Positions 21,696-23,113 of a DNA stretch of 64,000 nucleotides are shown here, one piece after another. Source of the stretch: Candidatus Nitrososphaera gargensis Ga9.2 (GTDB taxonomy: Archaea > Thermoproteota > Nitrososphaeria > Nitrososphaerales > Nitrososphaeraceae); contig NC_018719.1 of the NCBI RefSeq assembly GCF_000303155.1, positions 1,364,001 to 1,428,000 on the forward strand. Direction: 5' to 3'. Both the position numbers and the translations under genes were made by a program. The notes beneath the pieces were generated by a model. That model had not been told where the DNA came from. It did no database searches and worked only from the letters and a program-made list of their open reading frames with translations. Positions within the stretch are counted from its first letter, which is position 1, and every line of letters begins with the position of its first letter.

Positions 21696-21790
21696 ATATC
21701 CTTACCACACTGCACGCACGTCTTATATGTTTACTTGCTTGCATGACTGGCGTTTGAGGTTCGCCAAAAAAGTGTAAAGTCTATTCCATA

Positions 21791-21803
21791 AAAAGTTAAA
21801 TAG
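21791..21803 (+). promoter_or_regulatory. TATA box of the 121-aa membrane protein gene
   Basis: AAAAGTTAAATAG. TTAAATA is centred about 29 bases before ATG 21828, the right distance for initiation at or next to the start codon. GAGG at 21815-21818 could act as a weak ribosome site if the leader is longer. Confidence 0.55.
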
Positions 21804-21827
21804 CAGAATTCGAAGAGGTTAGGTAAT

Positions 21828-22193
21828 ATGAACAAGCCAATCATCATGATGGCTCTAGCTGCTGTAGCGGTTTTTGCCACCCCTGTAATTGTGCTCCAGA
21901 CCGCATACGCTCAGGGCTTGTATGGCGGAGGCGGAGGAACAGCTTCTCCAGAACAACTGAAAGAATGCGAACAGCTGGGAATCGACAGGAACGAGTGCAA
22001 CGACACGACTCTTCTGGCAAAGAGAAGACTGATAGCGGCACAAGAGAACCCATCCACCGGATCTGGAACACCAATGCTCTCAACTGAGACAGGCCAGATG
22101 GCAGTCTTCATTGGCGTTCTCGGTGCAATCTTTGGTGGAGTTGCTGCAGCGTTCTTCTTTAAGGGCAGAGGCGCAAAGCCAGTCTCAACCTAA
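21828..22193 (+). CDS. Signal-peptide, single-TM protein; candidate AMO subunit AmoZ
   Basis: 121 residues. Residues 1-28 form a signal peptide ending near TAYAQ. A glycine run (GGGGG) follows, then an extracellular segment with two cysteines (KECEQLGIDRNECND, residues 45-59) spaced for a disulfide. Residues 90-112 are a membrane helix and KGRGAKP is the cytoplasmic end. It has its own TATA box and a T-rich terminator. Ammonia monooxygenase of Nitrososphaera viennensis was reported to contain extra small subunits, AmoY and AmoZ, encoded side by side. This gene and the next fit that description, but I make the match from architecture and memory, not alignment. Confidence 0.65.
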   Translation: MNKPIIMMALAAVAVFATPVIVLQTAYAQGLYGGGGGTASPEQLKECEQLGIDRNECNDTTLLAKRRLIAAQENPSTGSGTPMLSTETGQMAVFIGVLGAIFGGVAAAFFFKGRGAKPVST

Positions 22194-22230
22194 CCCTCCC
22201 TCTTTTTGTTTTATTTTAAATCCAGCTTCA
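22194..22230 (+). terminator. T-rich terminator after the 121-aa gene
   Basis: CCCTCCCTCTTTTTGTTTTATTTT directly follows the stop codon: pyrimidine-rich with several T runs and no hairpin, the usual archaeal intrinsic terminator. Confidence 0.6.
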
Positions 22231-22273
22231 ATAAGACAGGATGATAATCGTTCTTTAAACTCTCTGCAACCAA

Positions 22274-22286
22274 AATGTATATATCT
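22274..22286 (+). promoter_or_regulatory. TATA box of the 80-aa membrane protein gene
   Basis: TGTATATATC, with TATATAT at 22278-22284, lies about 29 bases before ATG 22310. A strong consensus box at leaderless distance, so the gene is transcribed separately from the upstream membrane protein gene. Confidence 0.6.
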
Positions 22287-22309
22287 TTGGATCCTTTTGC
22301 ATAAGGATA

Positions 22310-22552
22310 ATGGTCTTCGATAGTCTAATTGGGCAGATAGGTCCAGCGTACGACCCACTCTTCTACGACGTCATGGTCTACATATTCGGAACCATGCTGT
22401 TCGCAGTCTTCCTGCTAGGCGTCATCGCCTTCTGGCTGAGGAGAAAAGGTCTCGGCGGTGGCTCTGCAAAAGAAAAGTGGGCACAAGAGCTGGAAAGGTA
22501 CTTTGAACGCGAGCAGATCGGCCTGATTCCGGACGAAAAGCACCACTGGTAA
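22310..22552 (+). CDS. Single-TM small protein; candidate AMO subunit AmoY
   Basis: 80 residues. A short N-terminal amphipathic part (GQIGPAYDPLFYD) leads into one strong membrane helix (residues 22-43, ending WLRRKG), then a charged cytosolic tail with aromatic and histidine residues (KHHW end). No signal peptide. Strong TATA box upstream and a GC-stem/T-rich end downstream suggest high, separate expression. Adjacent to the AmoZ candidate in the same direction; the same caveat applies. Confidence 0.65.
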   Translation: MVFDSLIGQIGPAYDPLFYDVMVYIFGTMLFAVFLLGVIAFWLRRKGLGGGSAKEKWAQELERYFEREQIGLIPDEKHHW

Positions 22553-22602
22553 AAACCCTCGGGCTACGCGCCCATTTTATCTTATTTTCTTTTATTATAT
22601 CT
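22553..22602 (+). terminator. Terminator after the 80-aa gene
   Basis: A short stem GGGC-TACGC-GCCC (22561-22573) is followed by a T-rich tract (ATTTTATCTTATTTTCTTTT). Either part could end transcription. Confidence 0.55.
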
Positions 22603-22642: not shown

Positions 22643-23113
22643 TTGAACGTAGTAGTCCTCATATTCCCTCCTTCCGCTTCTACAAGCAGACGGGCACTTG
22701 CCCGCTCCATAAGGGGGCTGGACATCAGGATTTCTAACGAAGGCGGATGCATCATCTGCGAAGGACGCGACCCTACCAAGCTTGCATCAAGGCTGGCCAA
22801 CCTTGCTGGAGCTGATATCACCACAATAGCAAGAAAAGTACCAAGTCGGTTTTCAAGCATCACAAATGCAATTGTTCAGGCGGGGAGCGAAACAATTTTG
22901 CCTGATGAAAAGTTTTACGTCAAAGTGATACAGCAGGCGGCCAAGGCCGACTATGTAGACAGGGACATCGAATTTGCTTCTACCGGCGCGCTTGTTGGCA
23001 AGCTGGCAGAAATAAACGCCCTGCCGGCAAAGAGCGAGCAGGAAGCTGACAGGGTGATTCTGGCTATCGTGGGCAAAAAGTCGGCATACATTTGCGTCAA
23101 AGATATGACCTGA
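22643..23113 (+). CDS. THUMP-domain-like protein, 156 aa
   Basis: From TTG 22643. Residues 85-156 resemble a THUMP RNA-binding domain: FYVKVIQQAAKADYVDRDIEF, then a helix, then ADRVILAIVGKKSAYICVK. No catalytic domain (ThiI thiolase, methyltransferase) follows, so it may serve as a tRNA-binding adaptor. The N-terminal 75 residues include a ferredoxin-like pattern. It is convergent with the glycosyltransferase gene, overlapping by 17 bases. Confidence 0.65.
   Translation: MNVVVLIFPPSASTSRRALARSIRGLDIRISNEGGCIICEGRDPTKLASRLANLAGADITTIARKVPSRFSSITNAIVQAGSETILPDEKFYVKVIQQAAKADYVDRDIEFASTGALVGKLAEINALPAKSEQEADRVILAIVGKKSAYICVKDMT

Follow-up and report, generated by a model that had tools for sequence, protein, structure and literature searches.

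The AMO subunits AmoY and AmoZ were found to migrate with, and to cross-link to, AmoABC and AmoX of archaeal ammonia monooxygenase (AMO), and their membership in native AMO has been published for two organisms only, Nitrososphaera viennensis and Nitrosocaldus cavascurensis (PMC10030591). In N. viennensis, which possesses six amoC copies, amoZ (NVIE_004550; 12.8 kDa) is located directly upstream of amoY (NVIE_004540; 9.6 kDa), and AmoZ was only loosely associated with AMO in gels (PMC10030591). The soluble two-helix part of AmoZ was modelled against AmoB, and a disulfide was predicted in Nitrososphaera (PMC10030591). Transcription was reported to be high for the N. viennensis pair and for N. 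maritimus amoY, and lower for N. maritimus amoZ (PMC10030591).

The window, a stretch of 64,000 nucleotides from the single contig (2,833,868 bp) of the Candidatus Nitrososphaera gargensis Ga9.2 genome, carries two adjacent small membrane-protein genes that the original prediction had proposed to be amoZ and amoY. Open reading frames of 121 and 80 aa were confirmed, and their position and strand agree with this prediction. The following features were assigned:

21828..22193, + strand: amoZ, 121 aa, identified by orthologues and synteny
22310..22552, + strand: amoY, 80 aa, with single-copy orthologues across the class and a 43-sequence consensus
21794..21806, + strand: BRE/TATA element of amoZ (AAAAAGTTAAATA region), aligned in eight genomes, about 22-34 nt 5' of the ATG
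22270..22288, + strand: BRE/TATA element of amoY (CCAAAATGTATATATC) in the intergenic gap, identical or nearly identical in eight genomes
22194..22225, + strand: T-rich stretch after amoZ, a possible archaeal terminator noted by sequence inspection only
22568..22602, + strand: T-rich stretch after amoY, likewise a possible archaeal terminator noted by eye only

The pair is almost certainly amoZ and amoY, two AMO subunit genes, apparently with a promoter each, whose products would join AmoA, AmoB, AmoC and AmoX. In this reading, orthology, synteny, distribution and promoter conservation come from the present analysis, and complex membership and subunit contacts from the literature. The pair represents an already described family and not a new one; with its correct naming, two “hypothetical” genes of this organism are assigned to the enzyme at the core of archaeal nitrification.

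Orthology and genomic neighborhood of the pair

The closest comparison is provided by genome G105 (2,527,938 bp), which carries six amoC copies and, at 375.6-374.8 kb, a corresponding pair in which amoZ immediately precedes amoY, as published. Its AmoZ (123 aa, 12.84 kDa) and AmoY (82 aa, 9.56 kDa) are 60 and 96% identical, respectively, to the window proteins. From the amoC count, the masses and the gene order, we infer that G105 matches N. viennensis. The proposed identity is thereby borne out by similarity, order, masses and neighborhood. The window pair shares with NVIE_004550/NVIE_004540 protein size and mass, gene order, a single transmembrane (TM) helix in each product and the AmoZ cysteine pair (PMC10030591), as well as the distance from amoABC and the genomic neighborhood. 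It differs from the N. viennensis-like copy in its AmoZ sequence, which is about 60% identical, and in the presence of two further AmoZ-like genes in its genome.

In both genomes, the pair is flanked by genes for S15, a RecJ-like protein and SerS on one side and by THUMP-like, glycosyltransferase-like and AMMECR1-like proteins on the other; these neighbors were named by eye, with S15 alone confirmed by Pfam. The THUMP-like gene downstream of amoY (window 22643-23113) codes for 156 aa, compared to 343 aa at the G105 position, and its product aligns exclusively to the N-terminal part of the G105 protein (32% identity) and consequently lacks the C-terminal half.

The Nitrosocaldus cavascurensis-like genome G041 (1,577,284 bp) exhibits the order SerS, RecJ-like, S15, AmoZ, AmoY, AmoB, AmoC, AmoX and AmoA, in which Pfam matches confirmed AmoB, AmoC and AmoA, and AmoX was assigned by position and size only. 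The N. cavascurensis genes (AmoZ, NCAV_0486; AmoY, NCAV_0488) are thus an orthologous pair with S15 and the RecJ-like gene on one side but, unlike the window pair, are clustered with amoB, amoC, amoX and amoA. Linkage to amoB, amoC and amoA within a few kb is found in early-branching lineages, represented by G041 and by the Nitrosopumilaceae-type genome G024, where the distance does not exceed about 4 kb. In the window's genome, amoC (1958 kb), amoB (1966 kb), amoA (1974 kb) and a second amoC (2629 kb) are far from the pair at 1386 kb. The expectation that the genes lie away from amoABC is therefore correct here, with a separation of at least 570 kb.

When named genomes were scanned with the window AmoZ protein, a Nitrososphaera MAG was the sole relative recovered. 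Searching Pfam and the PDB with the AmoZ and AmoY sequences yielded nothing usable, neither a confident Pfam family for either protein nor a solved structure.

The presence of three stand-alone AmoZ-like genes in the window's genome raises the alternative that the 121-aa gene encodes a non-AMO paralogue and that the true subunit is the 69%-identical copy at G000:C1:2548508-2548837 (G000 denoting the window's own genome). This is very improbable: the window copy alone adjoins amoY and keeps the S15/RecJ-like/SerS neighborhood, whose conservation extends to the N. cavascurensis-like genome, whereas the 2548508 copy has unrelated surroundings and no counterpart in the other sampled genomes of the genus. 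Small single-span proteins are common, and given the lack of a confident Pfam family, the two genes might also encode unrelated membrane proteins whose likeness to AmoY and AmoZ is limited to size and topology. This look-alike explanation has practically no likelihood left, as it is refuted by alignments with orthology E-values down to about 1e-50 and by a pair order that is conserved across the class.

Promoters, protein features and proposed role in AMO

The two genes are separated by 116 bp on the + strand. In an alignment of upstream DNA from eight genomes, all from the genus or closely related to it, approximately CATAAAAAGTTAAATA was common before amoZ and the element listed above before amoY, both at roughly 24-36 nt from the ATG, while the surrounding upstream DNA had diverged. 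For comparison, 2.5% of 18-nt windows drawn at random from the local DNA contain an A/T run of at least eight nucleotides. The TATA boxes that had been noted upstream of both genes are thus conserved as BRE/TATA elements, and because one precedes each gene, amoZ and amoY each appear to be transcribed from their own conserved archaeal promoter. The spacing between element and ATG suggests leaderless or near-leaderless messages for both. T-rich ends had also been described, and T-rich stretches do follow both stop codons. Termination at these sites can only be presumed, since a scan for bacterial-type terminators 3' of amoZ and amoY performed no better than chance; the combined bacterial promoter and terminator scan of the pair region was uninformative.

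All features previously noted for the 121-aa protein are present in its sequence. AmoZ (computed mass 12.45 kDa) begins with a hydrophobic, signal-peptide-like N-terminus that extends to about residue 29 and ends in AYAQ, followed by a glycine run (residues 33-37), a two-helix extracytoplasmic segment with Cys47 and Cys57, and a GSGTP motif (residues 78-82). A second hydrophobic stretch (about residues 88-113) forms the single TM helix and precedes a short cytoplasmic tail. A structure predicted from a two-sequence input places helices at residues 41-50, 59-73 and 88-112, with Cys47 near the end of the first helix and Cys57 just before the second, at low confidence (mean pLDDT 53). The model is unfit for a fold search because of this low value, and it is compatible with the published two-helix soluble part. 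AmoZ is poorly conserved, with about 30-60% identity between genera.

AmoY (9.31 kDa) contains no cysteine and exhibits the expected single TM helix and charged tail, with one hydrophobic stretch at about residues 16-45 and a charged C-terminus thereafter. It is conserved along its full length across the class (56-98% identity among class genomes with a match), and the consensus of 43 distinct sequences reveals a conserved QxGPxYDPLFYDV segment before the TM helix.

Given their orthology to the published subunits, it can be assumed that this species uses AmoZ and AmoY as its relatives do. In this model, both products would be single-span membrane subunits joining AmoA, AmoB, AmoC and AmoX. AmoZ would be exported, with a disulfide between Cys47 and Cys57 probably fixing its extracytoplasmic two-helix part, and this ectodomain would pack on AmoB, where it would replace the C-terminal domain of bacterial PmoB. 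The C-terminal cupredoxin domain of PmoB in bacterial pMMO can be considered as a functional analogue that shares this proposed place by the AmoB/PmoB soluble domain, whereas AmoZ is no cupredoxin but small, helical and anchored in the membrane. AmoY would contribute a TM helix preceded by the highly conserved segment.

Distribution among ammonia-oxidizing archaea

The pair was expected to be present in other ammonia-oxidizing archaea. Of 120 genomes of the class with a completeness of 90% or more, 106 contain AmoZ and 104 contain AmoY, the latter always as a single copy; neither protein had a match in the outgroup families f4 and f6-f10, which consist of non-ammonia-oxidizers. Class-wide conservation, which for AmoY extends over the full length, is unexpected for chance ORFs and indicates that both are real genes. 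An AmoZ profile (A1; 20 sequences) matched 35 of 43 hand-chosen genomes and none of the 8 outgroups among them. AmoC presence agreed with that of AmoZ in 17 of 17 genomes tested, and neither amoZ nor amoY turned up in any tested genome without amoA, amoB or amoC.

Three genomes presumed to belong to ammonia oxidizers (G022, G118 and G085) gave no AmoY match; all of them are drafts of 130-210 contigs. G085 (family f5) possesses amoA, amoB and amoC, and its one AmoZ-like gene adjoins a winged-helix gene. As this MAG consists of about 130 contigs, the absence of AmoY may be an assembly gap.

In 30 of the 39 genomes tabulated, amoY follows amoZ directly in the same orientation, at a distance of up to 350 bp. 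In the Nitrosocosmicus-like genus g2, amoY is found about 4 kb from amoZ on the opposite strand, and AmoZ carries a four-cysteine, zinc-ribbon-like tail, matching the tail reported for Nitrosocosmicus AmoZ (PMC10030591). The cysteine pair was found in AmoZ of Nitrososphaera and Nitrosocaldus, as published (PMC10030591).

AmoZ-like paralogues beside winged-helix genes

AmoZ belongs to a larger family, and further AmoZ-like genes exist in many ammonia oxidizers including this one. The AmoZ profile identified two paralogues in the window's genome, at 2548508-2548837 (69% identical) and 361381-361734 (53%). Over the sampled genomes, 33 extra AmoZ-like genes that are not located beside amoY were tabulated, and for 28 of them a membrane winged-helix gene is located no more than 400 bp away. 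Such pairs are found at G000:C1:360502-361743 (L072:9003-10244) and G105:C1:2195790-2197011, and Nitrosopumilaceae examples are L076:8897-10059, L118, L119, L120 and L136. We consider this pairing to be the part worth following, and it would matter more than the naming of amoZ and amoY.

In Nitrosopumilaceae, the paralogue and the winged-helix gene are nearly always divergent. The winged-helix protein, whose best Pfam match is HTH_24, has as its C-terminal part an AmoZ-like segment (approximately E-[ES]-L-x-x-A-K-x-x-V, and after it NP-x-x-GSGTP) plus a TM helix, and an hhalign comparison of 12 such proteins with AmoZ gave a probability of 98.3% (E 1.3e-14). The winged-helix gene of Nitrososphaera and G085 comes from another family and mostly precedes the AmoZ-like gene immediately, in the same orientation. 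The similarity of this second family to AmoZ is weak (33%), and shorter relatives also occur in non-ammonia-oxidizers.

In the AmoZ tree, the winged-helix-linked copies of Nitrosopumilaceae form one clade (100/98), with one divergent copy from G019 outside, and those of Nitrososphaera fall elsewhere. Because AmoZ sequences are short and branches long, only the Nitrosopumilaceae clade is firm. Although several branches are long and the sequences short, the tree suggests that the paralogues arose by recurrent duplication.

We know of no regulator of archaeal AMO. It is conceivable, albeit rather unlikely and put forward as a conjecture, that the AmoZ family has a regulatory branch in which the Nitrosopumilaceae winged-helix protein, given its AmoZ-like C-terminal segment and TM helix, would directly sense AMO, or the occupancy of AmoB by AmoZ, and adjust expression. 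In this reading, the association with winged-helix genes would have been established repeatedly, as Nitrososphaera has a winged-helix gene of another family. If true, a membrane DNA-binding protein with an AMO-subunit domain would be a concrete candidate for AMO sensing or remodelling.

Neither the larger AmoZ family nor the pairing of AmoZ-like and winged-helix genes was found in the literature searched. PMC10030591 does not use the word “paralog” in its main text, and in the one paper that a full-text search retrieved for this word together with AmoZ, it refers to NirK; a mention in supplementary material is possible. One candidate link to published data was the N. viennensis protein NVIE_027260, an unexplained protein co-migrating with AMO (PMC10030591). 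If amoC6 (NVIE_028540) is equated with the copy at 2388.5 kb, and amoZ (NVIE_004550) serves as the other anchor at 375.2 kb, NVIE_027260 is expected near 2.28-2.29 Mb, and the G105 paralogue, located at 2.196 Mb, was rejected as its counterpart by position.

Several further observations were made on AmoZ-like sequences. The 69%-identical copy in the window's genome (G000:C1:2548508-2548837; L071:9900-10340), its third AmoZ-like gene, is located near HxlR-like and TFB-like genes, both named by eye. In one Nitrosopumilaceae genome (L134, G047:C1:1581995-1585272), a second amoC is found about 1.5 kb from an AmoZ-like/winged-helix pair. An AmoZ-like two-cysteine motif, approximately TPxxLxECxxLGIxxxKC, is seen again, combined with a TM helix, in further exported proteins of the Nitrososphaera type (L073:8733-9803, L074:9810-10181, L133:2264-2653, L132:2523-2888 and L129:1803-2444), and in one instance this combination forms the C-terminal end of a 356-aa protein.
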